From: a virus
Direction: 5' to 3' (one strand)
DNA length: 25,664 nt
IMG/VR virus record: IMGVR_UViG_3300046000_002432
Coordinates: 1 to 25,664 of that record
The notes under the pieces were generated by a model. It was not told the DNA's origin, did not search any database, and saw nothing but the letters and a program-made list of their open reading frames with translations. Both the position numbers and the translations under genes were made by a program. Positions within the stretch are counted from its first letter, which is position 1. Each line of letters opens with the position of its first letter. Shown here piece by piece: positions 5,098 through 24,546 of this stretch.

Positions 5098-5529
5098 TTA
5101 TTCTTGGGTTAGATAGATGCAGTTGAAGGTGTGCCGAGCGACGCCCCAGCGCTTGTCCTCATCTGGCTCGATTACATAATCGACAGATGTTAAATGCGTA
5201 TCGCGGCAGCTTCCTCCGAGCGTCGGGTCAGCTAGGATTGCAGCCTCGACCGCTGCTGATCCTGTGTCGAAAAGGTCGTCGATGATCGTGGTCGAGGTCT
5301 GCGTCGTGAAGAAATCGACCATCACTTGAAGCTGGCGAAACTGTTGACCGGCTCCGATTGGCATCGACCGAATCTCGATCTGTTCGTTGATCGCGTAGAC
5401 CGCAGCAGATGGGAAGCTGACGCTGGCGATGGTATTGTTCCGACCTCGAATCAGATTGGCCGTGATGACCACGCCGGCGCTCGTAAGCGCGGTGCCGATA
5501 GCGTTGCGGATATTCGTGCGCGTGCTCAT
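5098..5529 (-). CDS. tail terminator, lambda gpU-like
   Basis: This 143-residue protein starts at ATG 5529 and overlaps the preceding gene by ATGA. The opening 'MSTRTNIRNAIGTALTSAGV' followed by 'LIRGRNNTIASVSFPSAAVY' matches tail terminators, where an N-terminal helix is followed by a strand bearing a conserved Pro-Ala. The C-terminal part 'DVYVIEPDEDKRWGVARHTF'-like segment (actual text: 'VDYVIEPDEDKRWGVARHTF') forms the last strand pair. In lambda, gpU hexamers cap the tube when it reaches tape-measure length and create the surface that binds the head. The call relies on this pattern plus placement between the Z-like gene and the tube gene, exactly as in lambda. Confidence 0.8.
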   Translation of the reverse strand: MSTRTNIRNAIGTALTSAGVVITANLIRGRNNTIASVSFPSAAVYAINEQIEIRSMPIGAGQQFRQLQVMVDFFTTQTSTTIIDDLFDTGSAAVEAAILADPTLGGSCRDTHLTSVDYVIEPDEDKRWGVARHTFNCIYLTQE

Positions 5530-6404
5530 GGTTCTTTATACTGAATCACTTTTGCTCCGCTGACCTTGGCAAAGCCTAGATTGACGGCCTTGTTTGCAAG
5601 CAGCCGGTCAATCTTTTCCTGCGTCACCTTGACGCGAATCGCCATCGCGTTGTCGATGTAACGATTGATATCCGGCACCTTGATGTTCGTCGCTGTGCCG
5701 GTGATGTAAGGATTTCTGCCGAAGTTGGATGACGTGATGCCAGACGCGGAAGCGTGACGACGAATCCACGCCGGAACGCGAATGCCGCAGGCAAGTGCAG
5801 CCGCTGCGAATCCTGACTTCGCCCAGCCGACGCGCGATTTGACCAAATCAAAATAGGCGTCAGCGGAGGAATTCTGAATCCACATTTGATCCTGCACCTT
5901 CCAGCGACCGATGACGCTCTGCGACACGTTGCCGGTGCGTCCTTTGGAATTGCGATAGCGTTTGTGAAAGTTGCCCATCTCCGATGTGGAAGCCGCCTGA
6001 TTCCAGAATCGCGACATGATGCGAATCGTCTTTGACCGTTCCCATCCGAGATGAACGCCGACCGTTTCGGTCCTGCCGTTCTTTGGAGGAACTAGCGACG
6101 AACTGCCGATGCGCTGAAACAAACCGACCGAGGAATAGCGAGCGCTCGCTGCACGCTTGCCTCCGAACAAATCGCCCTTGATCGCGTTCTCGCCGGCTTC
6201 TTTTGCAGCTGTGGTCATTCCTCCTTTGCCGGGACTGCCGAGCGTAGACTTCCCAATCGTCGGAGGAATAATGAGCATGAGCGTCTTCGCCACGAGTCCG
6301 CCCTCCTGCTTGATGACCTGACCAAGCTCCACGCGCCCAGCGTCAGCCAGCCGAGCAAGCGCGAACTCCAACTTCTTTGAGTCAACTTTGACCGAGAACT
6401 TCAT
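5526..6404 (-). CDS. tail completion protein, lambda gpZ-position
   Basis: This 292-residue protein starts at ATG 6404 and overlaps both neighbours by four bases. The N terminus 'MKFSVKVDSKKLEFALARLA' resembles the helical start of gpZ/HK97 gp10-like proteins, which bind the minor capsid or tail surface at the head-tail junction. The central 'VGWAKSGFAAAALACGIRVP' followed by 'AWIRRHA' is a distinctive segment of long members of this group. A basic, Arg/Lys-rich character runs through the protein. It is about 100 residues longer than lambda gpZ (192 aa). Function as a tail-completion factor is inferred from order (FII, Z, U, V) and the N-terminal pattern. Confidence 0.72.
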   Translation of the reverse strand: MKFSVKVDSKKLEFALARLADAGRVELGQVIKQEGGLVAKTLMLIIPPTIGKSTLGSPGKGGMTTAAKEAGENAIKGDLFGGKRAASARYSSVGLFQRIGSSSLVPPKNGRTETVGVHLGWERSKTIRIMSRFWNQAASTSEMGNFHKRYRNSKGRTGNVSQSVIGRWKVQDQMWIQNSSADAYFDLVKSRVGWAKSGFAAAALACGIRVPAWIRRHASASGITSSNFGRNPYITGTATNIKVPDINRYIDNAMAIRVKVTQEKIDRLLANKAVNLGFAKVSGAKVIQYKEP

Positions 6405-6721
6405 ATCTGCGTGCAGACGTCGATCTCGACTCCGGTTCCTTCCGCATCGAATCGAAGCTGCTCGACGAAGTAGGTCACGCCGGCGCGCACGAGCGTCTGA
6501 GTTTGAGCCGGTCTAGTGCCGACCTGATTCGTGGTCAGAAAGATTGTGAACTTGGATTCGTCGCGACGCTGATTCTCGAACTCGTCAAACGCATTGCGCG
6601 ACGAAGACCATATGCCGGTGACCGTGCTGCCCAAATAGCTAAACGTGACGCCGGCCTGCGCCATGATGCCGTCGTAATCGGCTTGGAGTTGGGTCGAATC
6701 AAAGTCTCGGACTGCGGCCAT
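6401..6721 (-). CDS. head-tail connector, lambda gpFII-like
   Basis: This 106-residue protein starts at ATG 6721, 16 bases after the GT-B gene stop, and overlaps the Z-like gene by four bases. It begins 'MAAVRDFDSTQLQADYDGIM' and continues with beta strands ('VTFSYLGSTVTGIWSSSRNA', 'FTIFLTTNQVG', 'VTYFVEQLRFDAEGTGVEID'). Small size, a helix followed by a beta sandwich, and position immediately before the Z- and U-like genes fit the gpFII family. These proteins attach to the portal-gpW complex and provide the docking site for the tail. Direct sequence recognition is modest; context carries most of the weight. Confidence 0.7.
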   Translation of the reverse strand: MAAVRDFDSTQLQADYDGIMAQAGVTFSYLGSTVTGIWSSSRNAFDEFENQRRDESKFTIFLTTNQVGTRPAQTQTLVRAGVTYFVEQLRFDAEGTGVEIDVCTQI

Positions 6722-6737: not shown

Positions 6738-7439
6738 TCAAACTATCCGAGACGCATCACAGATCGTGTCATTCTGCGGATCTCCGCTTAGGACATGAAA
6801 AAATGAAGAGCGAACGGCGCCACAAATAATCGCCGGAGCAGAGTTGATCGTAAACACGCTGCGAGCGTCGCGCAGCAGACGCGGCAGATGCGACGACCGG
6901 CGCGCAGTCAGGATCGAATCCTTGGCGATTCCAGCCCTTGCGAGCGCCTCGGCATGGCTAGGGTCTGCCAGAGTCACGAAAGGCCCGCAGATTCGATCCA
7001 TTGCCTGTTCCTCGAGACTCTCGATCGAGTAGCGATTTCGCTGCGAGTAGCCGAACGGCGAGAAGATGCTGACGTCAGGTGCCAGAAAGTAGTCGGCGAG
7101 GCTTGGCATCTGATCGATCAGGTCGAAAACCGGCTTGCGGTCGATGCCAGCGAGCAACGCGTTTGATCCGTAGACAAAATCCAGCCACGTCTGACCAGAT
7201 TCGACGAACTGGTTGAAACGATTCGGCCAGATTTCGAGGTCGAGTAGCATTCCAAAATCGTGATCCGCGCGCTGACTTCGGAGCGATGGCCGGCAGTAGC
7301 TGACGCAGTCAAAGAACTCGTGATACTGCGCGAGGCACTCGACGTGGACCTCGTCGCCGTTCGCCGCGAAGTGCCGCGCGATTGGCAGGATTCGGATGAT
7401 GTCGCCGAGCCGCTGCGAGTAGGCGATGCAGATTTTCAT
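6738..7439 (-). CDS. GT-B-type glycosyltransferase-like protein (GT9/heptosyltransferase-like)
   Basis: This 233-residue protein starts at ATG 7439 inside the ATGA overlap with the upstream glycosyltransferase, so the two are probably co-translated. The N terminus 'MKICIAYSQRLGDIIRILPI' has the hydrophobic strand, loop and G-D-I-I plus Pro seen at the acceptor-side Rossmann domain of GT9 enzymes. 'GDEVHVECLAQYHEFFDCV' follows as strand two. The C-terminal 'SVFTINSAPAIICGAVRSSF' matches the donor-side loop of the same group. It is clearly shorter than cellular heptosyltransferases (about 320-350 aa), so it may be a minimal phage form or have lost a segment. Donor and acceptor are unknown. Its place among virion genes suggests modification of a virion or host surface structure. 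Confidence 0.6.
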   Translation of the reverse strand: MKICIAYSQRLGDIIRILPIARHFAANGDEVHVECLAQYHEFFDCVSYCRPSLRSQRADHDFGMLLDLEIWPNRFNQFVESGQTWLDFVYGSNALLAGIDRKPVFDLIDQMPSLADYFLAPDVSIFSPFGYSQRNRYSIESLEEQAMDRICGPFVTLADPSHAEALARAGIAKDSILTARRSSHLPRLLRDARSVFTINSAPAIICGAVRSSFFHVLSGDPQNDTICDASRIV

Positions 7440-9145
7440 GCAGATTGACTAGATGGATTGCGAAGCTCGAACAGTTCCTTGCCGGCCTTGTATCGCTCTT
7501 CGGAATTATTGTGATCGTAGGTCTTATCGCTTGGAGCACGACCGAAGGAAGGATGCAGATGCTCAAAGGTGATTCTGTCTCGTGCATCTATCACGACGCC
7601 GTCCTTCCAAGCGCGCGTGCTGAATTCGTTGTCAGAATAGACCGACTCGTAGCCATCGTGGAATAGTTCGTTGCCTTGCTGCTCGTAGCGAGCGCGCGAG
7701 CAGATTGCCATGCAGAGCAAATTGTCGGTGCGATTGCCGTCGTTGACCGCGATGACAAACGAATCGAATGCCGGGTCTTTGTCTCCGACCTCTGCGAGTA
7801 ATTTATCATCCCATCCGAGAGACGGAATCCAGTCGTCGGAGAGTTGAATCAGGATGTTGCCGTTTGCTTTCTTTGCCGCGCGATTCCATGCAGCGACGCA
7901 CGACTTTTTGTCGGACACTACGCTGACAAAATAATTGGCCATCTCCACGGAATCTTTGTCGTCTGAATCGACTGCGAAGATGTGCTCAATCTGCGACGGA
8001 TTGCTGGCCGATGAAAGCCAAGCGTCACGACACGCGACAGCCTGAGACGACCGATGCCGCGTCGCGTGAAGCAAAGAGATGCGCGGCGTTCTGCCGGCGT
8101 GATACTGCGCCTGCAACACCGTCGCTCGTGCCAAGTTTCCATGACCTCGAAACGCACGCGCTGCCAGATCGTATCCTGCCCAAGTATACCACCTGACCTC
8201 GTGCGTCCACGGTCGGTCAGCCTCCAGCGGTTCGCGAAGCTCCAGCATCTTCTCCGACCAGTAGCTCGCGCGCTGCGTGTCGTTCTTCTCGAAATACAGC
8301 AGAATCAAATTGGCAATCGCCTCGCGGCACCACGGATAAATCGCGTGAGCTTCCATTAGATAACCGAGCGCCTCGCGGTGATTATTGCAGAGCTTCGCCA
8401 AATTGATCAGCGCCTCGTATCGAAAAGCTGGTTGCAGATTCGGAAACGAAATTGCGATCTTCCCGAACGCGATTGCGGCGTTGGTATTGACCGAGCAGAA
8501 ATGCTCTTGGTGGATGTAAAAATACTGTGCAGCGACTTCGCGCACGGAGTGGGCAAGGATTCGCAGATTCCGCCTGCGGTTCTCGCGTTTCACGATTTGC
8601 GGCGAATGAATCCAGACAGGCGCCTGCCAGTCCTCGTGACGGTCATTGGGCAGGAGCAGGAGGTTTTCGTGGACCTCGTGATGCCAGATGCGCCGGTCGT
8701 GGAAAGCGTGACTGCGGATCGCGCGCTCGCGATATAGTCTCTTCCCGCTGCCTCGAACGTCGTAGTAAGCACGCACCATCAGCACCTCGGCCGGCAGTAG
8801 CTCGAGCTTCTCGCGGAATCCTTCCACCTTCTCGATCAGGTCGTCGCAGTCAGCCCAGACCAGCCAGTCTCCGGTTGCCTGCGCGAATGCCTTGTTCCGT
8901 GCCGCTGCAAACGAATCGACGTGCTCCCAAGCCTCTGCGCCCAGCTGGTTCTTGTGCTCGCTGAAAACGAAAGGAATGCCTTTTGCCGCGCACCAGTCAC
9001 GCGCCATCTGTTCGGTCTCGTCTGGCGTCTTGATGCCGATGGCACGCACCAGCGAAAGCTCGTCGAAGATCGGTGCGAACGAGTTGAGCATCGAAATAAT
9101 GTGCTCGATCTCGTTTCCGCAGATTACGCACAAAGAAATTCTCAT
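7436..9145 (-). CDS. two-domain glycosyltransferase (GT2-like + helical repeats + GT-A-like)
   Basis: From ATG 9145 the protein has 569 residues. Residues 1-180 form a GT2-like GT-A domain: 'MRISLCVICGNEIEHI', 'ARNKAFAQATGDWLVWADCD' (DxD-type metal site, WADCDD at 97-102) and 'WHHEVHENLLL'. Residues about 225-350 are helical and TPR-like ('ALINLAKLCNNHREALGYLM', 'EAIANLILLYFEKNDTQRAS'). From 355 a second GT-A-like domain starts ('RISLLHATRHRSSQAVACRD', 'VDSDDKD' at 392-398, 'LSDDW' at 435-439, 'FEHLHP' at 527-532). An upstream GTG at 9181 is open in frame but lies inside the terminator hairpin, so ATG 9145 is preferred. A dual sugar-transfer role is inferred; substrates are unknown. The gene is an insertion relative to the lambda order. 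Confidence 0.75.
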   Translation of the reverse strand: MRISLCVICGNEIEHIISMLNSFAPIFDELSLVRAIGIKTPDETEQMARDWCAAKGIPFVFSEHKNQLGAEAWEHVDSFAAARNKAFAQATGDWLVWADCDDLIEKVEGFREKLELLPAEVLMVRAYYDVRGSGKRLYRERAIRSHAFHDRRIWHHEVHENLLLLPNDRHEDWQAPVWIHSPQIVKRENRRRNLRILAHSVREVAAQYFYIHQEHFCSVNTNAAIAFGKIAISFPNLQPAFRYEALINLAKLCNNHREALGYLMEAHAIYPWCREAIANLILLYFEKNDTQRASYWSEKMLELREPLEADRPWTHEVRWYTWAGYDLAARAFRGHGNLARATVLQAQYHAGRTPRISLLHATRHRSSQAVACRDAWLSSASNPSQIEHIFAVDSDDKDSVEMANYFVSVVSDKKSCVAAWNRAAKKANGNILIQLSDDWIPSLGWDDKLLAEVGDKDPAFDSFVIAVNDGNRTDNLLCMAICSRARYEQQGNELFHDGYESVYSDNEFSTRAWKDGVVIDARDRITFEHLHPSFGRAPSDKTYDHNNSEERYKAGKELFELRNPSSQSA

Positions 9146-9163
9146 GACGCTTTGCCGTCTGTC

Positions 9164-9205
9164 AAAAACGGAAAACCTCACGCCGGTGAAAGCGCGAGGT
9201 TTCCG
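9164..9205 (-). terminator. intrinsic terminator after the major capsid gene
   Basis: Read on the minus strand, the arm CGGAAACCTCGCGC (9205-9192) pairs with the arm at 9183-9169 through 14 base pairs, one G-U, with a single bulged T and an 8-nt loop. Five T residues follow (9168-9164). It begins 17 bases downstream of the capsid stop codon and ends 18 bases before the preferred glycosyltransferase ATG. Hairpin plus U-tract is the standard Rho-independent form. Read-through must still occur for the connector and tail genes unless they have their own promoter. Confidence 0.85.
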
Positions 9206-9222
9206 AAACTAACCTGACTCGA

Positions 9223-10191
9223 TTAAGAGTATTGAGTCGTGATCAACTGAGCCGCGTTCGAATTGACAACCTTCTCGGCGACGTAGTGCGAAGAGCGCAC
9301 GACGTTCGATCGGATCGTCTCGTCGCGGTAGGTCGTCACGCCGATGACTGGACCATACTCGGACCAGTTGAGCGTGAAGCCAGCACCACCGCCGAAGTAG
9401 CCAGCGCCACCATCGGAGACCGAGCCGACCCAAGCCAGCGTGTTGCTCCAGATGTTCGCGCTCGCGTAGGCCACGCCCTCGTTGGCGCTGTCGTAGGACG
9501 ACCGACCGATCAGCACTTCCTGCACGCCCAGAGCCTCGGCAGCAGCCGCAAGACCGACGTTCAAGAAGGTGTCGGACGAGACGCCAGCACCGCGCAAACG
9601 GTTCTGAAACTTCGTCGAAGCCTTGATGCGGTTGTAGACAGGACTCGAAAGAACGACCCTGAGATTGTCGATCGACTCGCCCTTCGCGAGCAGACGATCT
9701 TTGCAGTCATCAACGTCAGCACCGAAATCGAACGTCGCCAGATTCGCGGCCGTGTAAGCGGTCGCAGAATTGGTCGCGGTGAAGACGGTGTTGTCGAAGA
9801 TTTTCGCAGCGACGCGAAGCTCGTGAGCGAGCATGAGCGAACGCTGCGAGAGCTTGCCGGCGATGACTTCAGCGTCGAAGAACCGCGCCATGTCAGCGGT
9901 CACAACGTCATCGATGGTATTCTCGATGCCGTATTCGATCGCGGTGTAGGTGTCCTGAGTGAAGGATTGCGTCGCGCGAGGATACGCACCACCGACAGCG
10001 CGCTGCTTCGCGCTCTGCTTGAGGAGTTGCGCTTCCTTGAGGAGAAAGGTCGGATACTGCCCAGCGCGCACTGGCACGTTGAGGACCGGCATGACCTTGG
10101 TGCCGATAAGTCCATTCTCCCAGTCTTTCGACTGTTCGAGGACACCGGCGATATCGCCACGGAATACCGCGGCTGCATTTGAGTAAGCCAT
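9223..10191 (-). CDS. major capsid protein
   Basis: This 322-residue protein starts at ATG 10191, 19 bases after the decoration gene stop, behind an A/T-rich leader with no Shine-Dalgarno. Features consistent with an HK97-fold coat protein of the lambda-E size class (341 aa) are an N-terminal arm ('MAYSNAAAVFRGDIAGVLEQ'), a beta extension ('VMPVLNVPVRAGQYPTFLL'), a long spine helix ('AQRSLMLAHELR'-like region near residues 115-135; actual text 'SQRSLMLAHELRVAAKIFD') and a C-terminal strand ('VIGVTTYRDETIRSNVVRSS'). Order after protease/scaffold and decoration protein is as in lambda. No separate delta domain is evident. It is followed by a strong terminator, consistent with high expression of the most abundant virion protein. 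Confidence 0.85.
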   Translation of the reverse strand: MAYSNAAAVFRGDIAGVLEQSKDWENGLIGTKVMPVLNVPVRAGQYPTFLLKEAQLLKQSAKQRAVGGAYPRATQSFTQDTYTAIEYGIENTIDDVVTADMARFFDAEVIAGKLSQRSLMLAHELRVAAKIFDNTVFTATNSATAYTAANLATFDFGADVDDCKDRLLAKGESIDNLRVVLSSPVYNRIKASTKFQNRLRGAGVSSDTFLNVGLAAAAEALGVQEVLIGRSSYDSANEGVAYASANIWSNTLAWVGSVSDGGAGYFGGGAGFTLNWSEYGPVIGVTTYRDETIRSNVVRSSHYVAEKVVNSNAAQLITTQYS

Positions 10192-10210: not shown

Positions 10211-10570
10211 TTAAAGACTGTTCAGCTTTGGAATGAATTCGACCACCGCGCCGGCCTCGGTCGCAGTCGTCAGAGTTTTGCCGAGAATCACGGTCCCGCT
10301 GACGGAACCGAGACCGTTTGCGCCGATGTAGATCGTGTCACCGACCGTGATCGGACCGGCGAGCATGGAGATTTTCTGAGTGCCTTGACCGTGCAAGAAA
10401 GCGACGGTCACAAAGTCACCAGAGGCAGCATCGATCTGCGTGATGCCATCGACCGAGCCGGCCGTGGAAGCGAGACCGACACCGCGATTGTTGGAGATGA
10501 CGACCGCGCGGAACGCGGTCAGAGCGCTGTTGGCGACGAAGGTGCCTGCGCCGAGATATTGAGTAGCCAT
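10211..10570 (-). CDS. capsid decoration protein (gpD-position, DUF2190-like)
   Basis: This 119-residue protein is small, Gly/Val/Thr-rich and all-beta. It starts at ATG 10570, 12 bases after the protease/scaffold stop. 'FRAVVISNNRGVGLAS', 'DFVTVAFLHGQGTQKISMLA' and 'GPITVGDTIYIGANGLGSVS' show the repeated strand-turn pattern of DUF2190-type phage proteins, in which a 'G..i..Gd.iyi...G.v' segment recurs. Position between scaffold/protease and major capsid matches lambda D. Such proteins bind as trimers at threefold sites of the expanded capsid and stabilise it against DNA pressure; that role is inferred here. Confidence 0.75.
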   Translation of the reverse strand: MATQYLGAGTFVANSALTAFRAVVISNNRGVGLASTAGSVDGITQIDAASGDFVTVAFLHGQGTQKISMLAGPITVGDTIYIGANGLGSVSGTVILGKTLTTATEAGAVVEFIPKLNSL

Positions 10571-12498: not shown

Positions 12499-12890
12499 GT
12501 CGGCCAGATTACATCGAACGGGAATCCAGCCTGCTGGGGAACGTCCCGCAGCGCCTTGCGATACGGCGCCCACTGGGATTTAACGGCTGTGCTGATGTCC
12601 GCGCATTGGGTCCAGTCGGTCTTGCCAATTAGCAAATCTCGCGCCTCACGAACCTCTGTTGCTTTAGCTTTGCGCTCCTCTGGGGTGGCAGAAAATGGAA
12701 TGAGAGAAAACACTCCTGCGTTAAACGAATACTTCCCCGGCTCATAGTCTGCTGGAAGCGTAGTCTCCACTATCTGCCAGCCCGCAATAACGTGCTTGGG
12801 ATAGACGGCATCTGAGGACGTAATGGCGTCAGCCGTTTCCGTAAGGCTGCCCACCGCAAGAATGTTTGAACCTTGGATTAGGATTTTCAT
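12495..12890 (-). CDS. tail fibre assembly chaperone (Phage_tail_APC-like)
   Basis: This 131-residue protein starts at ATG 12890, overlapping the tail fibre stop by ATGA. The C-terminal half carries a very recognisable signature: 'REARDLLIGKTDWTQCADIS' followed by 'QWAPYRKALRDVPQQAGFPF' and a final 'DVIWPT'. The pattern 'RD.LL...DWTQ..D' then 'YR.ALRD.P.Q.GFP...WP' is typical of phage tail fibre assembly chaperones encoded just after fibre genes. The N-terminal half ('MKILIQGSNILAVGSLTETA') is more variable. It should help fold or trimerise the preceding fibre and not remain in the virion. Adjacency to the fibre gene supports this. Confidence 0.85.
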   Translation of the reverse strand: MKILIQGSNILAVGSLTETADAITSSDAVYPKHVIAGWQIVETTLPADYEPGKYSFNAGVFSLIPFSATPEERKAKATEVREARDLLIGKTDWTQCADISTAVKSQWAPYRKALRDVPQQAGFPFDVIWPT

Positions 12891-15800
12891 GCGGCAATCT
12901 CAATGTTAAGTAGGCGCATTTGATAGGTTGAGGCAGAGTTAACAGTAGAGCCTCGACTTGCTTGCCCAAGAAAAATAACCCTGTTGCTTGCTACTGCTGG
13001 AATTGGGTATTGAGCAATAAGCTGCGAAGGCGTACTAATAAAGCCTCTATCATAAAAATAATCCCCATTTGACCTTAATACAATAACGCCCGATCCACCC
13101 GCCGCAGCGTTGTTAAAGTTGCTAGTAAAAACGTAATCACCGCTAGAAAGCCGAACGCTACGAAAACTGCTTATGGCTGAGTTTACGATACTTAAATTAG
13201 TTTTTAGTGCACCAGAAGTAATTGTGGTGCCAGAAATTTTATGTGGGACAAGAGCCAATTCATAAACTGAAGTGGTTACGGTAACGCTTTCCATTACCGA
13301 TATAAAATCACTTGTTCCTTGTGGAAGAATAGCTCCTGCTCCTCTACTTCCGCTACCTGCCGTACTAATGCTATTAAAAAGTATGGTTCCCGCAGTAACA
13401 GTTCCTGCGCTTTCTGTAAGAATTACAGCGCGGCTTACCGAAGTGAGGTTAAAATAAGAAAATAAAACTGTGGTAGCGGTAAGTGGAAATAGAATAGGCT
13501 TGTAACGGTTATAAGAACCAATGGTAGCAGCATAACTTAAGTTGGGGCTAAGACCCGCAATTGTTTCTACCGTTAATACCGCACCAACAGTTACCGTTGT
13601 TCCTGAAATGGTAAACGCTTGAGCACCTGTAATAGTATCGTTTGTGTCTGGAGCAATCAGTGCTTTTGTTGTTGATAACAAACACGAAGCAACAGGCCCT
13701 GCGGTCAATCTTGTACCGCCAGCAGTCGAAGTTGCAACGGTGCAAACCGGAGGATTGGCATTGGTAACGCTTACCACCACTGCGCTAATGGTGTAGGGAG
13801 CAGCAGCTCCGCTCATATAAATCACCAATCCAGTAGTCGCCGTTAACGGGTAGGTCGTAGTGCTATCAACGACATTGTTTGTCGCAATAATGTTAACCGC
13901 GCTGCCGAGATTGACCGTTGTTCCACCAGATACTTGAAACGCTGCAACTGAGGTATTTCCAGCACCAGTAGCGGTTGCCCAACTTACTAGATAAAGCGTT
14001 GCCGCAAGTTGAGCAATCTTAGGAGCACCAAAAAAATCCTCAACTCCAACGCCTGTGTCTGTAAGTGTAGATGATGGTGTGCCAATAGTTAGGGTGGTTG
14101 CACCAGAAAGTGAAATTACTACGCCAATTAATGTGCCAGTTGAACTGCTATAAAACACAATTGCCGTTGTGCTTGTAATTAAGAACACTGAGCGCGGCAC
14201 CATGCTTGCCGTAGCCGATACTGTTACCGGCGTGCCCACTGCGCCCGTGGTGTTATCAACCGCCACAGCAGCAAACCCGCTGGATAACGCAAGAAAGTGA
14301 AGCGACTTATTAGAGTCAAAAGCTAAAAAAGGAAGATACCGAGTGCCCGCGTAAGTAGAACTAAACGTGCTATCAATGGTAATAAGGCCGGGTTCAAGCT
14401 GGTCGCCAGTGATGTTCCACACACCCGCAGCAGTAGAAACGTCTTGGCACGAACAAAATGCGGTGCCTCCAGCAGCAATTGCCATAAGCAATGTGCCAGC
14501 ACTGTTGCGAATACCGACCGGATATCCGCCGCTTGCGTTGTTGAGATAGAACTTAGGCGAACCAACCGTTACCGTAGTAGCGTCAGGCAGCGTCACCGAC
14601 TTGCCAAGCGCGGTCATGGCGATTGGCTGATAACCGGGAGAAGCAGCCGTTAACGTGGTATTGGTGGTAATTGTAGCTCCAGTAGAACTGATGCCACCAC
14701 CGGAAGGTGTTGAACTCGACCAAGTCGTGCCGTTGGAGGTGAGCACATTCCCGGTCGTTCCCGGTGCGACAAATTGAACTGCGCTCGTCCCGTTACCAAG
14801 GAGGACGTTGTTTGCCGTCAACGTGGTCGTGCCGGTCCCGCCCTTCGCGACGGTGACGGTATCAGACAAGGTCGAGCCAGCCGCCGTGACCGTGATAGCT
14901 GCCGTTCCGTCGAAATTTACGCCATTGATCGCCCGAGCAGTAGCAAGAGCCGTGGCCGTCGCTGCGTTGCCTGTGGTGCTGCCAGATGACCCGCTGGCGT
15001 TGCCGGTCAGATTCGCCGTGATTGTGCCGGCGGTAAAATTACCGGACGCGTCACGCGCAACGATTGCCGATGCCGTGTTTGCAGATGCTGCGGTCGTCGC
15101 TGAATTGCTGACCTTCAGCGCCGTCGAGATCGTGTCGAGCTTGGTATCGGCAATTGCCGCGCTCGCATTAATGTCTGCGTTCACGATAACGCCTGCTGCG
15201 ATTGCGGTGGCATTTCCTACGCTCGACACATCGCCAGTCAGATTCGCATTCGTCGTTACGTTTCCAGCCGTCAGTCCAGCAGCCGTGCCGGTAATGTTCG
15301 TGCCGACGAGCGCGGACGGTGTTCCGAGCGCCGGCGTGACAAGCGTCGGCGAAGTCGCAAAGACAAGAGATCCGCTGCCGGTCTCGTCAGAAATTGCCGT
15401 GGCAAGCTGCGCCGAGGTCGCCGTGACGGTGTTGGTAGCCAAGTCGATCGACTTGTTCGTCAGCGTGTCCGTCGTCGCTTTACCGACCAGCGTGTCCGTT
15501 GCGTCTGGGAGACTCAGCGTGCGATCAACGGTCTGCGTGCTGCTCAACATCGTGCGCGTGTTTGTCGCTCCTCCAGACGCGTTGAACATTACGCGTTTGG
15601 TTTCGTCCACGCTGTCGTTGACGTTGACATAACCGCTCGCGCCCTTGGCAACCAAGTGCAAGCCGACCGAAGCGTCGGTTCCTGTTGCGCGAATATGCAC
15701 CGCATTTCCAGTCGCGCTATTTTCAATCGTGACTTGATTCACCGCTGACGCAATCGAAGCCAGCTTGAGCGTGGCGTTCGTGCTGGCATCGTTGATCTGC

Positions 15801-17722
15801 GCGATGACTGGAGTCGTGATCGTCGGAGAACTGCTGACGACAAAGGTCGAACCAGTTCCGGTTTGTGCTGCGATAGAAGTGGCATTGCCGACTGACGTGA
15901 TCACTCCGGTCAGATTTGCATTCTGGACGACCGTGGCCGCAAAGCTGCCGGTGCCGCTGCCTGTCACGCCGCCTGTGAGCGTTATCGTCTGGTCGCCCGT
16001 GTTGGCACCAGACACTGAGGTCGTGCCGGTGACGGCAAGCGTCGGAGTGGATGCGCCAGAGACGACGACGGAATTGACCGAGGTGGGAACGATGGCACCG
16101 AGCGTCAGGCTGATGGCCGGCGTGGTCGTCGAGGTCGCTACGGTGCCGGATACTCCGTTCGCCGTGGTCACCGACACGCTCGTGACGGTCCCGCTGCCTC
16201 CAGCCGCGACGAAGGAAGTGTTCGTGCCGTCGCTTTGGAGCACCTTTCCGCTCGCTCCGACCTGCGACGGAAGCAGCGCATTTAGCGCATCATTCGCGGT
16301 GACCTGACCTGTGCCACCCTTGGCAATCGTGACCGTATCCGAGAGCGTGCTGCCGGCAGCGGTCACCGTGATGGCCGCGGTGCCGTCGAAGTTTACGCCG
16401 TTGATTGCGCGCGCTGTCGCGAGCGCGGTTGCGGTCGATGCCAAGGTAGCGGTCGATGCGTTGCCAGTCAGAGCAGCGGTGATCGTGCCTGCCGTAAAGT
16501 TGCCAGACGCATCACGAGCGACGATAGCGGAAGCCGTATTCGCAGACGCCGCAGTCGTGGCCGAGTTCGAGACCTTCGACGCGGTCGAGATCGTCGCGAG
16601 CTTCGTATCCACAATGGCCGCGCTTGCGTTGATATCAGCGTTGACGATGACGCCCGAACCGATCGCCGTCACAAAAGAACCTGTTCCGCTTCCGGTCACA
16701 TCACCAGTCAGCGTGATGGTCTGATCGCCGGTGTTCGTGCCGCTGATCGCGCTCGTGCCAGTCACTGCCAGCGCCGGCGTCGAGGAACCGGACAGCGTCA
16801 CGGCGTTGACGGTCGTCGGCGTGATCGCACCGAGCGTCAGGCTGATTGCTGGCGTCGTCGTACTGGTTGCAACCGTTCCCGAAACACCGTTTGCGGTCGT
16901 GACGGAAACACTCGTGACGGTCCCAGAGCCACCGCCGCCGCCTGTTGCGGTGATCGTGATCGAGCCGGGCGCATTCGCAATCGTGACACCAGAGCCAGCG
17001 GTCAGCGTCGCCTTCGCGAAATCTCCGTTTGAGCCGATGAGCAACTGCCCATCGGTTGACGCTCCGACCAGATCGAGAATCGAAGTCACGCCACCTCCAC
17101 CGCTGCCAGTTCCACGCGCTGCGCTCAGAGTCCACGCAGATGTCGTTCGCGATGGCTTCTCTTTATTGTCATCCGTGTTCGAGACGTAGGAATCTCCATT
17201 GTATGCGACAAGGTCGAGGCGCTGGTATCTTTCGCTCGCCTGCCACTTGCCTCGCGGGTTCAGACCTTTCGGCTCGGCAAATTCTTTTCGCAGTTGGTCA
17301 ATTTCTCCAGCTCGCGGAAAACGTGAAAGCTCGTCGAGGACGATTGATTTTACCTTGGACGGAATCTCCATTGCCGCCGCAGCGATCAAGTCTTTCGCCT
17401 GCTGTTCGATTTCCTTCGTCTTGTTTTTTTCCGCCAGCAGCACCGAGTATTTTGCGGCCGTGGTTCGTTCCAGATTGCGAAGCAGTTCGTCAACTTTTTC
17501 GGTCAGATTGATTTCAATGGAATCTGCCAACTCGCCTGATTTGTTTTTCGCAAATTCCTCAAGCTCGCTGCGAAGTTGCGGCTCGATCACCTCGAGGTTT
17601 TTTTCAATTTCGTCCGTCAGAAATTGCCGCATCTGCGGAAGCTGCTCGACGAGTTCTTTCAACTCGGTCCGCTGAATTAGAGCCAGTTCAACCAGACGTT
17701 CGATTTTGAGTTGGGTATCCAT
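12887..17722 (-). CDS. giant modular tail fibre / receptor-binding protein
   Basis: The protein has 1,611 residues from ATG 17722; a TTG at 17737 overlapping the portal stop is an alternative. Residues 1-145 are charged and coiled-coil-like. Residues about 152-195 ('GLNPRGKWQASERYQRLDLV', 'GDSYVS') resemble a small carbohydrate-binding module. Residues about 200-1000 are Ser/Thr/Gly/Ala-rich fibre modules with 'IAKGGTG', 'TNTGDQTITLTGDVTGSGTG' and 'ALGTPSALVGTNITGTAAGL', many repeated. Residues about 1005-1110 form a 'VTLPDATTVTVG' beta module, and 1125-1611 contain roughly eight imperfect 45-60-residue beta repeats, probably a beta-propeller tip. The downstream third is visibly A/T-richer. 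The gene lies between portal and protease, not next to J. Its role is inferred to be host-surface adhesion. Confidence 0.85.
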   Translation of the reverse strand: MDTQLKIERLVELALIQRTELKELVEQLPQMRQFLTDEIEKNLEVIEPQLRSELEEFAKNKSGELADSIEINLTEKVDELLRNLERTTAAKYSVLLAEKNKTKEIEQQAKDLIAAAAMEIPSKVKSIVLDELSRFPRAGEIDQLRKEFAEPKGLNPRGKWQASERYQRLDLVAYNGDSYVSNTDDNKEKPSRTTSAWTLSAARGTGSGGGGVTSILDLVGASTDGQLLIGSNGDFAKATLTAGSGVTIANAPGSITITATGGGGGSGTVTSVSVTTANGVSGTVATSTTTPAISLTLGAITPTTVNAVTLSGSSTPALAVTGTSAISGTNTGDQTITLTGDVTGSGTGSFVTAIGSGVIVNADINASAAIVDTKLATISTASKVSNSATTAASANTASAIVARDASGNFTAGTITAALTGNASTATLASTATALATARAINGVNFDGTAAITVTAAGSTLSDTVTIAKGGTGQVTANDALNALLPSQVGASGKVLQSDGTNTSFVAAGGSGTVTSVSVTTANGVSGTVATSTTTPAISLTLGAIVPTSVNSVVVSGASTPTLAVTGTTSVSGANTGDQTITLTGGVTGSGTGSFAATVVQNANLTGVITSVGNATSIAAQTGTGSTFVVSSSPTITTPVIAQINDASTNATLKLASIASAVNQVTIENSATGNAVHIRATGTDASVGLHLVAKGASGYVNVNDSVDETKRVMFNASGGATNTRTMLSSTQTVDRTLSLPDATDTLVGKATTDTLTNKSIDLATNTVTATSAQLATAISDETGSGSLVFATSPTLVTPALGTPSALVGTNITGTAAGLTAGNVTTNANLTGDVSSVGNATAIAAGVIVNADINASAAIADTKLDTISTALKVSNSATTAASANTASAIVARDASGNFTAGTITANLTGNASGSSGSTTGNAATATALATARAINGVNFDGTAAITVTAAGSTLSDTVTVAKGGTGTTTLTANNVLLGNGTSAVQFVAPGTTGNVLTSNGTTWSSSTPSGGGISSTGATITTNTTLTAASPGYQPIAMTALGKSVTLPDATTVTVGSPKFYLNNASGGYPVGIRNSAGTLLMAIAAGGTAFCSCQDVSTAAGVWNITGDQLEPGLITIDSTFSSTYAGTRYLPFLAFDSNKSLHFLALSSGFAAVAVDNTTGAVGTPVTVSATASMVPRSVFLITSTTAIVFYSSSTGTLIGVVISLSGATTLTIGTPSSTLTDTGVGVEDFFGAPKIAQLAATLYLVSWATATGAGNTSVAAFQVSGGTTVNLGSAVNIIATNNVVDSTTTYPLTATTGLVIYMSGAAAPYTISAVVVSVTNANPPVCTVATSTAGGTRLTAGPVASCLLSTTKALIAPDTNDTITGAQAFTISGTTVTVGAVLTVETIAGLSPNLSYAATIGSYNRYKPILFPLTATTVLFSYFNLTSVSRAVILTESAGTVTAGTILFNSISTAGSGSRGAGAILPQGTSDFISVMESVTVTTSVYELALVPHKISGTTITSGALKTNLSIVNSAISSFRSVRLSSGDYVFTSNFNNAAAGGSGVIVLRSNGDYFYDRGFISTPSQLIAQYPIPAVASNRVIFLGQASRGSTVNSASTYQMRLLNIEIAA
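14834..15196 (-). repeat. tail-fibre repeat II, copy b
   Basis: Encodes 'AGVIVNADINASAAIADTKL' through 'TARAINGVNFDGTAAITV' to 'VAKGGTG', 121 residues. It is paralogous to 16307-16657, with diverged codons but a nearly identical protein. Confidence 0.85.
15941..16195 (-). repeat. tail-fibre repeat I, copy b
   Basis: Second copy of the block at 16673-16927. It has the same first 35 residues and the same 'NTGDQTITLTG..TGSGTGSF' end, with several substitutions between ('TPTTVNAVTLSG' versus 'VPTSVNSVVVSG'). Confidence 0.85.
16307..16657 (-). repeat. tail-fibre repeat II, copy a
   Basis: Encodes 'SGVIVNADINASAAIVDTKL' through 'TARAINGVNFDGTAAITV' to 'IAKGGTG', 117 residues. It matches copy b at 14834-15196 almost residue for residue except for a short length difference in the middle ('STATLASTATALA' versus a longer Ser/Gly-rich stretch). 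Confidence 0.85.
16673..16927 (-). repeat. tail-fibre repeat I, copy a
   Basis: Encodes an 85-residue block starting 'SGTVTSVSVTTANGVSGT' and ending 'GDVTGSGTGSF'. Its first 35 residues are identical to copy b at 15941-16195, but about a fifth of the bases differ, nearly all at synonymous positions. One serine is AGT here and TCG in copy b. Confidence 0.85.
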
Positions 17723-17733
17723 CGATGAATTTA

Positions 17734-19836
17734 TCAATTCGATTTCTCAGCCTGAGTCGAACCGTCAGGAGTTGATGTGGCCGGCCTCGAAAAGTTGATA
17801 AGTTCTGCGATGCGACTGGCTTCTTTGACTTGATCAGCCTGCACGTCGAGTCGCTCGACGATTTTGGTCGCCCACGAGTAACCCGCGTCTCCGCCCCAGC
17901 CCATCCACGCCTGCCATCCGCGACCCTGCTCGCTCCACGTCTCGCCCTTTTTATCGACCTCGTGACGATCAAAGAATGCCTTCATGCGCTTCACGGTATC
18001 GACTGAGAGCGGACGCTTGTTCATGATGTCGCGCGCTCGTGCGATTCCGACGCTGGTCATTCCGCGCTGAGACGGTGGCTTTGATGCGCGCACCTCGAGC
18101 GAGCGTTTTGCATTCTGCACCATCGCATCGGTCGGAATGTAACTGTCGATTTCAAAATTGATGGTCACGCAGTTCTCTTCGAGCGCACCGTTTTCTTTCG
18201 GCGAGTTGGACGCGCCGGCTGAATCATCGCTCGGCACGGCGTCGCTAGGTGCAACGCTGCTGCTCGATGCCACTTGTGCTGCTGCCGCTGCCGCGCCGAC
18301 GTTGTCGCCTGCCGCTGCCGCTGCTGCTGGAGTTGACGGAAGCGAATTCGTCACGAGACGGATCGAAGTTTCTGGCACTCCGTATTTCGACGAGAGTTCC
18401 TTGATGAAGCTCGCCTCGATTGCGATCTGCTCCAGCCGCGAGAAAGCGTCGGTGCCTTCTTCGCTGGCAATCTCTGCCAAGCTCTTTGCGCCTTGCCGAT
18501 TCTCGTTCAAGTTCGCCGCAGATTCGCGACCGACGTCGATCGAGAGCTTAGCCGGAAATCTCCACTCGCCGGCAGTCGCTCGGCGCAGTGCCTGCACCAT
18601 TGTCTCGCCGGCCTTCAGACTCGGCGCCGTCAATTCTCCGCGAGCGATTGCGTCGATCAGGACTGCGTTTTTGATCGGGTCGAGAACCTTGTCCACGAGC
18701 ACGCCCTGATGACGCGTGAACACGCGATCAGCCGCAGCGAATTCTGCGCGCACGCTTGGACCTTGGTAACCTTGCGATCCGAAGAGCACCGCCTGCGGAA
18801 TGCCGACTGCCAGAGAAATCTCGTGCATCAGATGCTGCACGAATCCTGTGAACGCCTGCGATGGTCGCGACGGCATCACCTCGATCTTGTCGGCGTTTCC
18901 GAAGTAACGAATCATGCCGACTTCGCTGAGTTCGTTCTGCTGCTGCTGTCCGTTGCCTAGCGTAACCGCTGGATTAGGAGTGAAAAGATTGCGTGGATTC
19001 GCCGTGCCACGATCCGAAAATACAAGTGCGGCCTGCTGCGACGCAAAGCGCACGCCAGCTTTTTCAGCTTCGAGAATTTCATAAAGCGAGCGAGCCGTGC
19101 GAATGCCCGAATGAAAGTCGGTCACGCCGCGATATTGATCGACTCGGAACGGGTCAAAGTAGTGACAGAAATTTGCAGCCGGCACGTCCTCTGGGTCGAA
19201 GTAAATGCCAGAGCGGTCCACGCGAAAAATCCTGTATGCAATCGGCTGACCGTAATCGTTAGTGAAAATGCCCTGATAATAATTCTGCGAGATGTCCGTC
19301 TGATTGTTTGGATTCCCGATGCGAGTCGCTGGCACCAGCTGAATCTTCAGACCTTCGCCGGCGCGCCGAATTACGAATCCGCAATCGCCATCTACCGGAC
19401 GTTCCTCTGCCGCAAGCTGGATCAACTTCTTGAAACTGTGCCTGCCGGTAACGTCCGCGCTTTTGCACCACGCGTGGAAGTATTCGGACACCTCCGCGTT
19501 GTATTCGCGGTCACCAGTCATCGGCGAATACTCGGTCGGCGTGAGATTGATGCCGAACACACGAGACGACGCGCGAATCTCAGGCACGTTCTCGACCAGA
19601 TCGCGAGCCTCCCACATCATGATGATGCGGTCGCGAACTGTCTGCGGTGACTCGCTGACCTGTCCGTATTGCTTCGGATTGTAGAGTCGATTAGTCCTCG
19701 CCGCGTTATACTCGAAGAGCGCCTTCGTCACGCGCGACTCCAGCCGGCTCAATCCCCACGACGGCGCGACGTTGTCGATGGCTTTATCCAGCCACGTTTT
19801 GTTTGCGACAATTTGCGACGGGTCGAAGGTTTCCAT
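17734..19836 (-). CDS. portal protein, lambda gpB-like, with extra C-terminal domain
   Basis: This 700-residue protein starts at ATG 19836, two bases after the gpW-like stop. The first 500 residues have lambda-type portal features: 'YNAARTNRLYNPKQYGQVSE' near residue 43, 'RASSRVFGINLTPTEYSPMT', 'DGDCGFVIRRAGEGLKIQLV', 'VGIPQAVLFGSQGYQGPSVR' and a stretch of Q/N before 'LSEVGMIRYFGNADKIEVMP'. Portals form the dodecameric DNA gate at one capsid vertex. Residues about 498-552 are a low-complexity Ala/Ser/Pro linker. Residues 553-700 hold an additional conserved-looking domain with 'PPSQRGMTSVGIARARDIMN', 'FFDRHEVDKKGE' and 'AWMGWGGDAGYSWATKI'. Lambda gpB (533 aa) lacks that domain. I recognise the motif as recurrent in phage head proteins but know no function. 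Confidence 0.88.
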   Translation of the reverse strand: METFDPSQIVANKTWLDKAIDNVAPSWGLSRLESRVTKALFEYNAARTNRLYNPKQYGQVSESPQTVRDRIIMMWEARDLVENVPEIRASSRVFGINLTPTEYSPMTGDREYNAEVSEYFHAWCKSADVTGRHSFKKLIQLAAEERPVDGDCGFVIRRAGEGLKIQLVPATRIGNPNNQTDISQNYYQGIFTNDYGQPIAYRIFRVDRSGIYFDPEDVPAANFCHYFDPFRVDQYRGVTDFHSGIRTARSLYEILEAEKAGVRFASQQAALVFSDRGTANPRNLFTPNPAVTLGNGQQQQNELSEVGMIRYFGNADKIEVMPSRPSQAFTGFVQHLMHEISLAVGIPQAVLFGSQGYQGPSVRAEFAAADRVFTRHQGVLVDKVLDPIKNAVLIDAIARGELTAPSLKAGETMVQALRRATAGEWRFPAKLSIDVGRESAANLNENRQGAKSLAEIASEEGTDAFSRLEQIAIEASFIKELSSKYGVPETSIRLVTNSLPSTPAAAAAAGDNVGAAAAAAQVASSSSVAPSDAVPSDDSAGASNSPKENGALEENCVTINFEIDSYIPTDAMVQNAKRSLEVRASKPPSQRGMTSVGIARARDIMNKRPLSVDTVKRMKAFFDRHEVDKKGETWSEQGRGWQAWMGWGGDAGYSWATKIVERLDVQADQVKEASRIAELINFSRPATSTPDGSTQAEKSN

Positions 19837-22780: not shown

Positions 22781-23425
22781 TTAAGAAAGCGCATCCGCTT
22801 GTCTCGACTGCGCCAGCGCCTCGGTCTCGAACTTCGCGATGTTCGCGTTGATGACCTCGCGGATTTCTTCGAGGATCACGGCACCTTCGACGTTCGCCTC
22901 GGCAGCGTTCTTGCCGACGACGCGCGGACCTAGCTCGACCTCCAGCTTCAGCCGCAGGAGCAGGTCGAGCTTCTGACCCAGCGTGACCAGCATCGCCTCG
23001 ACCACGTCCCGGTCGATCACGTCGCCGGCCTCGCGTTCGTTCTTTGCGCGCGCCAGCCGGATCTGCTCGCGCATCAGTTCCGCTTTCAGGTCGGCAAGGT
23101 TCTTCGTGGCCGTGTCCTTGCCGATCACGTTGTCCGCGCAGAACTGCTGCCACGCTGTTAAGTTTTCGCGATGCCCGTCCTCGTGCTTTTTCGGCGCATC
23201 AGGGAAGCGGTTGCGGGCGTCGTAGATCGCTTGGCGCGACAAGCCGAGTTCTTTTGCCAGCGTGGTCGTGTCCTTCACCCAGCCGTCGAGCTGACCAGAT
23301 TGGAAATCGTTCAGCGCTTTGCGCTCGGAGGTCGTCAGCGTCTTGCCGGCCTTCAGCTTCGTCGCGATGTTCGAGACATTGCGGCGAGCTAAGATTTCAG
23401 CGGCTGACTGCGCTGGGTCGGTCAT
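22781..23425 (-). CDS. terminase small subunit (Nu1-like)
   Basis: This 214-residue protein starts at ATG 23425 in an ATGA overlap with the methyltransferase gene. A winged-helix DNA-binding region is seen near residues 50-80: 'VKDTTTLAKELGLSRQAIYD' followed by 'ARNRFPDAPKKHEDGHRENL'. The helical C-terminal half 'DLKAELMREQIRLARAKNER' and 'DVIDRDVVEAMLVTLGQKLD' is typical of Nu1/small terminases and probably mediates oligomerisation and contact with the large subunit. Small terminases recognise the packaging site and regulate the motor. It lies upstream of the large subunit gene with one inserted gene between. Confidence 0.83.
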   Translation of the reverse strand: MTDPAQSAAEILARRNVSNIATKLKAGKTLTTSERKALNDFQSGQLDGWVKDTTTLAKELGLSRQAIYDARNRFPDAPKKHEDGHRENLTAWQQFCADNVIGKDTATKNLADLKAELMREQIRLARAKNEREAGDVIDRDVVEAMLVTLGQKLDLLLRLKLEVELGPRVVGKNAAEANVEGAVILEEIREVINANIAKFETEALAQSRQADALS

Positions 23426-24546
23426 GGCATCAGCTTTTCAAGCACGGCCTTTTTTCCGGTAAGCGTTTCCCATCGCTGCACGATCACGTCGCAATAAGCC
23501 GGCGAGATTTCCAAGCCGTAGCACTTGCGGTTCAGTTGCTCGGCGGCGATCAGCGTGGTGCCTGAGCCGAGGAACGGGTCTGCTATGATCTTGGATTTGG
23601 AAAGCCAGCAATCAAAGACCCACTGATATAGCGCGACAGGTTTCTGTGTTGGATGTTCTCGCTTCGCATCGCGTTCGGATGCCTTGTGGTTTCCGCTCCA
23701 TGCGTGACGAAAAACTCGCACTGGACCACCGACGCTTACATAAGCAAGTTCCGCGTCAGCAAACGTCATCCCGTGATGATCTTTGTCCCAAACAGCCCAA
23801 GACGACGAACCGGGTATCGCGTCACTAAAATAGTTTGCGCCCCACCAGATTTGTATCGGTGCAACATTCGACCAAAAGCGGAACGCAGATCGCGCAAGGG
23901 ATGCGTCCTCATCTCCTGCCATCACCATTGCAACCCTGCTATTCCCTAGACCATTTGGAGCATTCATCCCTGTCCCGTATGGCGGATCAGTCAAGACCGC
24001 GTCGACCTTCACATCGTCCATCAACCTTGTTACATCCTGCTCTTTTGTCGAGTCGCCGCACAATACACGATGATCGCCGAGAATCCAAAGGTCGCCCAGC
24101 TTCGTAATCGGATCGGCTGGCGGTTCTGGCACCTCGTCCTGAGTCACTTCAGCGCCGAGCATCTTGTCCACCTCGGCAGAATCGTAGCCGGTCGCCGCGA
24201 GTAAATCCGCGTCCTCGACCTTTAGCGATTCCAGCACCTTGGCGAGTCCGTCTTCGTCCCACTCTGCCAGTTCAGCCGTCCGGTTATCAGCAATCGCGAA
24301 CGCCGTGGCCTCGACTCCGGTCAACTCGGTGCGCGTGATTTCAATCTTGGTCCAGCCTAGTTCCTGCGCTGCGGTCAGAGTTCCGTTGCCGGCGAGCACA
24401 ATTCCTTTTGCGTCCACGACGATCGGCTTTTGCTGACCGAACTTTCGCAGGCTGGCTTTGATCGCGTCCAAATTCTTGCGCGAGTGCTTGCGGACGTTCG
24501 ACGGGTCAAGCGACAGCGCGGACAGGAGCACGGTTTCAAACTTCAT
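23422..24546 (-). CDS. ParB-like domain fused to DNA methyltransferase
   Basis: This 374-residue protein starts at ATG 24546. Residues 1-130 are ParB-like: 'LDPSNVRKHSRKNLDAIKAS', 'FGQQKPIVVD', and 'IVLAGNGTLTAAQELGWTKI', where GNGT replaces the usual GxxR box, so canonical CTP hydrolysis is doubtful. Residues 145-374 are an amino-methyltransferase with beta-class motif order: DPPYGT (187-192, catalytic), HPTQKP (298-303) and the SAM-binding DPFLGSGTT (323-331). DPPY favours N6-adenine methylation, with N4-cytosine possible. No restriction gene is adjacent, so it is probably an orphan phage methyltransferase that marks phage DNA against host restriction or affects packaging. Target sequence is unknown. 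The start has no Shine-Dalgarno and is preceded by a T-rich stretch. Confidence 0.88.
   Translation of the reverse strand: MKFETVLLSALSLDPSNVRKHSRKNLDAIKASLRKFGQQKPIVVDAKGIVLAGNGTLTAAQELGWTKIEITRTELTGVEATAFAIADNRTAELAEWDEDGLAKVLESLKVEDADLLAATGYDSAEVDKMLGAEVTQDEVPEPPADPITKLGDLWILGDHRVLCGDSTKEQDVTRLMDDVKVDAVLTDPPYGTGMNAPNGLGNSRVAMVMAGDEDASLARSAFRFWSNVAPIQIWWGANYFSDAIPGSSSWAVWDKDHHGMTFADAELAYVSVGGPVRVFRHAWSGNHKASERDAKREHPTQKPVALYQWVFDCWLSKSKIIADPFLGSGTTLIAAEQLNRKCYGLEISPAYCDVIVQRWETLTGKKAVLEKLMP

Follow-up and report, generated by a model that had tools for sequence, protein, structure and literature searches.

A fixed capsid-adjacent slot in uncultivated phages carries a conserved glycosyltransferase gene and interchangeable outer enzymes

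Glycosylation of phage virions is documented in a few mycobacteriophages and has mostly been discussed as a means of antibody evasion. Two studies report glycosylation of virion proteins in Che8, Corndog and Myrna (PMC12363180, PMC11256854), the first of which describes Che8 gp110 as essential for virion glycosylation (PMC12363180). In Corndog, an O-methyltransferase, two glycosyltransferases (GTs) and a GlcNAc-transferase (gp35-38) lie between portal and protease within the virion operon, and capsid modification was proposed by its authors (PMC4351075). Outside phages, the flagellin-modifying enzyme GmaR has been proposed to bind its substrate through its TPR domain (PMC9638930). Phage virion glycosylation and GT/methyltransferase modules in virion operons, one of them (LittleE) in the very slot described below, are already known. 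The suggestion in the first-pass annotation that a linked module of this composition is undescribed is not supported, given that Corndog (PMC4351075), Che8 gp108-110 (PMC12363180) and the GTs between capsid and connector genes of LittleE are already comparable.

The window, a 25,664-nucleotide stretch of the uncultivated virus record IMGVR_UViG_3300046000_002432, presents the gene order TerL, portal, decoration-like protein, major capsid protein (MCP), a GT2 gene (the core enzyme) and a GT9-like gene, FII-like protein, tail terminator, tail tube, chaperone and tape measure. The features of the slot and its surroundings are as follows:

10211..10570 (-): decoration/cement-like protein, possible acceptor (PF09956 at E 2.4e-4, below the gathering cut-off; PHROG 673 at E 3e-8)
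9223..10191 (-): MCP, possible acceptor (PHROG 1005 at E 3e-33)
9146..9222 (-): 77-base gap between MCP and GT2, with an intrinsic-terminator-like hairpin and U-run
7436..9145 (-): core enzyme, 569 aa; GT-A domain (about 1-184), TPR-like helices (187-350), second GT-A domain (355-562)
7440..7447 (-), approximate (alignment junction at 7444): junction without a methyltransferase gene, where relatives including L001 and L002 have a gene for a SAM methyltransferase of about 206 aa
6738..7439 (-): compact GT9-like GT-B protein, 233 aa, its gene in ATGA overlap with that of the core enzyme
6401..6721 (-): FII-type head-tail attachment protein, closing the slot (PF05354 at E 7e-4, below the gathering cut-off, and synteny)

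The Pfam matches to Phage_attach, Phage_cement_2 and the tail tube family fall below the gathering cut-off, and these assignments lean also on PHROG or synteny. The start codon of the core enzyme at 9145 was set by alignment of homologues. Both slot genes are kept in many independent contigs and are under purifying selection, with dN/dS of 0.06-0.08 for GT2 and 0.18 for the GT9-like gene; because of this conservation and these low ratios the two ORFs are real genes, and chance or non-coding ORFs are ruled out. The first-pass annotation had placed a two-gene, ATGA-coupled cassette between the capsid and connector (E/FII) genes, and both the coupling of 9145-7436 (-) to 7439-6738 (-) and the location, with the MCP upstream and the FII-like gene downstream, are confirmed.

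Several other genes of the window were noted in passing. A 1616-aa ORF at 12887-17737 (-), between the portal and protease-region genes, has no Pfam match; its N-terminus is conserved and the length of its product is very variable among relatives, from about 643 aa (L283) to 1901 aa (L280). The 292-aa product of 5526-6404 (-), after the FII-like gene, falls into two identity classes among relatives, about 24-34% or 49-85%, which suggests that this connector-region gene is exchanged as a module, its identity classes having no obvious tie to cassette type. The 374-aa protein encoded at 23422-24546 (-) joins a ParB-like N-terminal part to a DNA methyltransferase part and has many PHROG matches; in L280 the ParB_N gene and a C5 cytosine methylase gene are adjacent but separate.

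The core enzyme is matched by Pfam Glycos_transf_2 (PF00535) in its N-terminal part (E 2.9e-13), and the PHROG glycosyltransferase families 13126 (residues 1-347) and 14945 (residues 355-552, E 1.6e-16) together tile it. Its AlphaFold2 model, built from 29 sequences (pLDDT 89.6, pTM 0.81), consists of a GT-A domain, helical repeats at 187-350 and another GT-A domain, which bears out the two GT-A-like domains joined by TPR-like helices that had been read from the sequence alone. The N-terminal domain combines the modelled GT-A fold with a DxD-type motif, and its ten marker residues, D99, D101 and D102 among them, are unchanged in all 95 phages compared; ten marker residues of the TPR region are nearly invariant in the same 95, with two single substitutions. 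The C-terminal domain likewise has a GT-A fold and a DxD-type motif, with D437/D438 and D393/D395 invariant and the motifs HATR, D393, SDDW, D505, H529 and H531 unchanged in all 51 full-length proteins. In each of the 44 phages bearing a stand-alone GT-A enzyme, GTA2, the core protein is shortened to 460-506 aa and the C-terminal GT-A motifs are lost or eroded; shortened and full-length proteins share an identity of 0.60 over regions one and two but of 0.35 over the third. One phage outside the main GTA2 clade, L174, has a 506-aa core protein with the motifs HATK and RDNY together with a stand-alone GTA2, an apparent earlier stage of this decay. The association suggests replacement of the second GT domain by GTA2 but falls short of statistical proof, because no more than two changes on the tree are attributed to GTA2.

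Comparison with solved structures places the core enzyme near enzymes that act on proteins. A profile search returned the flagellin GlcNAc-transferase GmaR (E 9e-10) and ThuS (E 0.0016), and a fold search with the model placed the peptide S-glycosyltransferases SunS and ThuS at the top (7msp, TM 0.65 by target length), so that the architecture of a GT2 domain followed by TPR-like helices, as in SunS and GmaR, is recovered by both profile and fold. The teichoic acid enzymes TarS and TarP appear in both the profile and fold lists, and chondroitin and heparosan synthases in the fold list. The best reading is that the nearest solved relatives point by analogy to a protein acceptor; a polysaccharide acceptor is also conceivable, since TarS/TarP and the chondroitin/heparosan synthases are among the fold matches.

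Searches of Pfam, PHROG and PDB sequences gave no match for the 233-aa protein. Its model (pLDDT 92, pTM 0.90) finds GT9 enzymes as top fold matches, namely 3tov, WaaC, WaaF and TibC (TM 0.66 by query length), which bears out its earlier description as a GT9-like GT-B protein. As sequence matches to the GT9 family are lacking, the label used here is GT9-like by predicted fold only. GT9 is mainly a family of LPS heptosyltransferases and also includes TibC, a protein heptosyltransferase. A GT fold is thereby predicted in both proteins, and the three putative transferase domains proposed in the first-pass annotation (GT-A, GT-A and GT-B/GT9) are supported by the predicted folds. Neither protein contains a membrane-segment-like stretch (maximum KD19 hydropathy 1.17 in both).

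The slot is fixed across the sampled lineage. At least 280 relatives of the core enzyme were found in IMG/VR by pattern search, and the best 80 per search were examined. Among 115 distinct MCP relatives having at least 600 bases downstream, sampled at about 66% or more identity to the window MCP (more distant capsids lie outside this scope), GT2 is the next gene after the MCP in 114: within 300 bases in 104 and behind an inserted gene in 10, the insert being an HNH endonuclease in the cases inspected (for example L148:5154-5855). The sole exception, L341, ends 736 bases past the MCP, inside the same HNH gene. At the other edge the GT9-like gene abuts FII in 78 of its best 80 relatives, the remaining two having no FII match. 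Wherever a relative offers enough sequence, linkage to virion genes is observed, and the genes are not scattered. No match to the MCP was found among 50,697 phage records, so no cultured member of the lineage was detected, and the sole match of the core and GT9-like proteins among cultured phages was a weak one in Pelagibacter phage HTVC008M, involving the C-terminal domain. A single match among genome contigs, a 27,992-base phage-like contig of the lineage (L279, VGHX01000030.1), is binned in a Betaproteobacteria MAG, by which a betaproteobacterial host is weakly indicated at best.

The gap between MCP and GT2 is conserved in structure. Of 90 distinct homologous gaps, 89 contain a hairpin and following U-run at E < -15 kcal/mol; the figure for mononucleotide shuffles is 7 of 450, and the stems differ in sequence between gaps. 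The annotation of Pseudomonas phage PMG1 has a terminator at the same place, directly 3' of the MCP. From this we infer that the hairpin keeps the enzymes less strongly expressed than the capsid protein.

The genes after that of the core enzyme, meanwhile, vary. In the close relatives L001 and L002 (core enzyme 92% and MCP 99% identical to those of the window) a 207-aa SAM methyltransferase (Methyltransf_23, E 1e-13) is encoded between the core and GT9-like genes and coupled to both; the alignment shows its absence from the window as a clean gap of about 608 bases near 7444, with ATGA coupling present. The window is the only record of the homology-based table with just the GT2 and GT9-like genes and, as one record, may reflect real loss or an assembly matter. 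The two-gene cassette of the first-pass annotation stands as a description of the window, which carries a reduced form of a larger and variable cassette; that annotation mentioned neither the absent methyltransferase gene nor the hairpin behind the MCP gene. On an MCP tree of 95 phages, with cassette types assigned by homology, the following genes come after the core:

stand-alone GT-A enzyme GTA2: 44 of 95 phages
methyltransferase and GT9-like protein: 27 of 95
GT-A enzyme GTA3: 11 of 95
Methyltransf_24/TylF, GT and GT9-like protein: 4 of 95
DUF5672 and GT9-like protein: 4 of 95
methyltransferase, GT and GT9-like protein: 2 of 95
single cases, including one that combines GT9b (a second kind of gene similar to the GT9-like one, so labelled by motif only) with a two-part TPP enzyme and a zinc alcohol dehydrogenase

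This tree requires a minimum of 10 switches between types, against 45 for shuffled labels, and the types are therefore clade-linked yet turning over. Almost all outer genes of the slot encode GTs, methyltransferases or sugar-type enzymes. In L075 (4565-7486) the usual outer enzymes are replaced by a GT9-resembling gene (found also in L160), a two-part TPP-dependent enzyme and a zinc alcohol dehydrogenase, a set that suggests an unusual cap or sugar.

The reading preferred here, with a probability of roughly 70%, is that the cassette serves glycosylation of a virion protein, begun by a conserved enzyme and continued by interchangeable outer ones. The cassette would be expressed late, the terminator-like hairpin 3' of the MCP holding enzyme levels below those of the capsid. 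The GT-A and TPR half of the 569-aa protein would recognise a virion protein, with the MCP and the decoration protein as the likeliest candidates, and attach the first sugar; its second GT-A domain may then add another and the GT9-like protein a further one, while in relatives the methyltransferase or other transferases would extend or cap the glycan. The outer enzymes are swapped between lineages, and particles of different lineages should therefore carry different glycans. Homology of GTA3, the outer enzyme of some relatives, supports a tie between the slot and known virion glycosylation at the level of sequence: GTA3 of L010 is homologous to Che8 gp108 (33% identity, E 6e-26), and its 57 INPHARED matches are all from Mycobacterium or Gordonia phages. 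Mirror-tree correlations of the core enzyme are 0.76 with the MCP, 0.91 with the decoration protein and 0.89 with FII, and pick out no single acceptor.

The enzymes could instead act late in infection on host LPS or surface glycans, blocking superinfection or preventing progeny from adhering to cell debris. The GT9-like fold is closest to the LPS heptosyltransferases WaaC and WaaF, and the TarS/TarP matches of the core enzyme point the same way, but GT9 also includes TibC, itself among the fold matches, and the top matches of the core act on proteins. Moreover, neither a flippase nor a membrane-type GT partner is seen in the slot, hydrophobic segments are absent, and the core gene, in contrast to accessory conversion genes, occurs throughout the sampled lineage in a locked position between MCP and connector. 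Of the two targets left open by the first-pass annotation, a virion protein is thus retained as the most likely, and host-surface modification, with superinfection exclusion or conversion as its role, is disfavoured by universality, operon position and the lack of hydrophobic segments, and is kept as an unlikely rival.

Two further readings are less probable again. The cassette might build a free or lipid-linked short glycan in the manner of a chondroitin synthase with its two GT-A domains, to be transferred later by another enzyme to a virion or host component. Fold matches to the polymerases K4CP and heparosan synthase do span both GT-A domains, but at TM-scores of about 0.27 against 0.40 for SunS (by query length), and the conserved function is not paired alternation, since 44 of 95 phages have lost the second GT-A. 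Nor did any oligosaccharyltransferase come to notice in passing, and this reading is considered distinctly improbable. Hardest to credit is glycosylation of hypermodified bases in the phage DNA. Phage GTs are capable of base glycosylation, and methyltransferases could in principle act alongside, but the core fold resembles SunS and GmaR, the genes sit inside the virion operon, and among the genes checked in one 39-kb relative (an incomplete set) there is no base-hydroxymethylation gene, those found being C5 cytosine methylase, ParB_N, RecT-like, RusA and nuclease genes.

If virion-protein glycosylation is the correct reading, an uncultivated and widespread lineage treats glycosylation as a core morphogenesis function, in which the initiating enzyme is kept as strictly as the capsid gene and the outer enzymes are exchanged. 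As far as searches tell, and within the open-licence literature, what is new is the lineage itself, the GT-A/TPR/GT-A core, the retention of that core in nearly all members and the exchange of outer enzymes. This raises the puzzle of what lineage-specific sugars would offer to environmental phages, which are unlikely to encounter vertebrate antibodies. It is tentatively proposed, at somewhat less than even odds, that many phages keep a capsid-adjacent glycan slot in which a conserved protein-targeting initiator is combined with exchangeable outer enzymes and capsid sugars consequently differ by lineage like serotypes, here in an environmental and probably non-actinobacterial lineage with no known immune selection. 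If true, virion glycans would have an ecological role other than antibody evasion. The arrangement makes it testable which virion protein is modified and what the TPR-guided GT recognises.

As in Che8 and Corndog, GT and methyltransferase genes of the lineage are linked to one another or to virion genes. Che8 gp108-110 form, like the slot, a coupled run of GT and methyltransferase activities, and gp108 joins a GT2 part, homologous to the GTA3 of relatives, to a TylF-type methyltransferase; unlike the slot, they lie at the right genome end and not after the MCP, in a phage of an actinobacterial host. The window itself has no GTA3, and pairwise comparison of the core enzyme with gp108, gp109 and gp110 gave no significant match. 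The Omegavirus LittleE, compared here by its genes, uses the same slot for gp15-21, in the order MCP, GT, kinase, MT-GT, GT, GT, connector. Its gp15 is a GTA3 homologue, a likeness to the slot of relatives, whereas gp17 and gp18 show no significant match to the core enzyme, gp21 has only a weak GT2-type Pfam match and the slot also holds the kinase-like gene. The Corndog module, compared here by its published description, has the O-methyltransferase, two GTs and GlcNAc-transferase inside a virion operon as well, but between portal and protease and not between MCP and connector.

D3-type Pseudomonas phages (PMG1, PP9W2) carry a GT-B and a methyltransferase between head closure and a tail component. 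Their methyltransferase is homologous to that of the slot (32% identity, E 6e-14) and adjoins the gene annotated as GT-B, but this GT-B is not detectably related to the GT9-like protein and the annotation of the stretch includes no GT-A/TPR core; the 233-aa protein showed no detected relation to the GT-B gene product of PP9W2 or to the L075 gene product. The core enzyme has its closest architectural counterparts in the glycocin S-glycosyltransferases SunS and ThuS and the flagellin O-GlcNAc-transferase GmaR, with which it shares a GT2-type GT-A domain followed by TPR-like helices; their acceptors are proteins, and the phage enzyme differs from them in the addition of a second GT-A domain.
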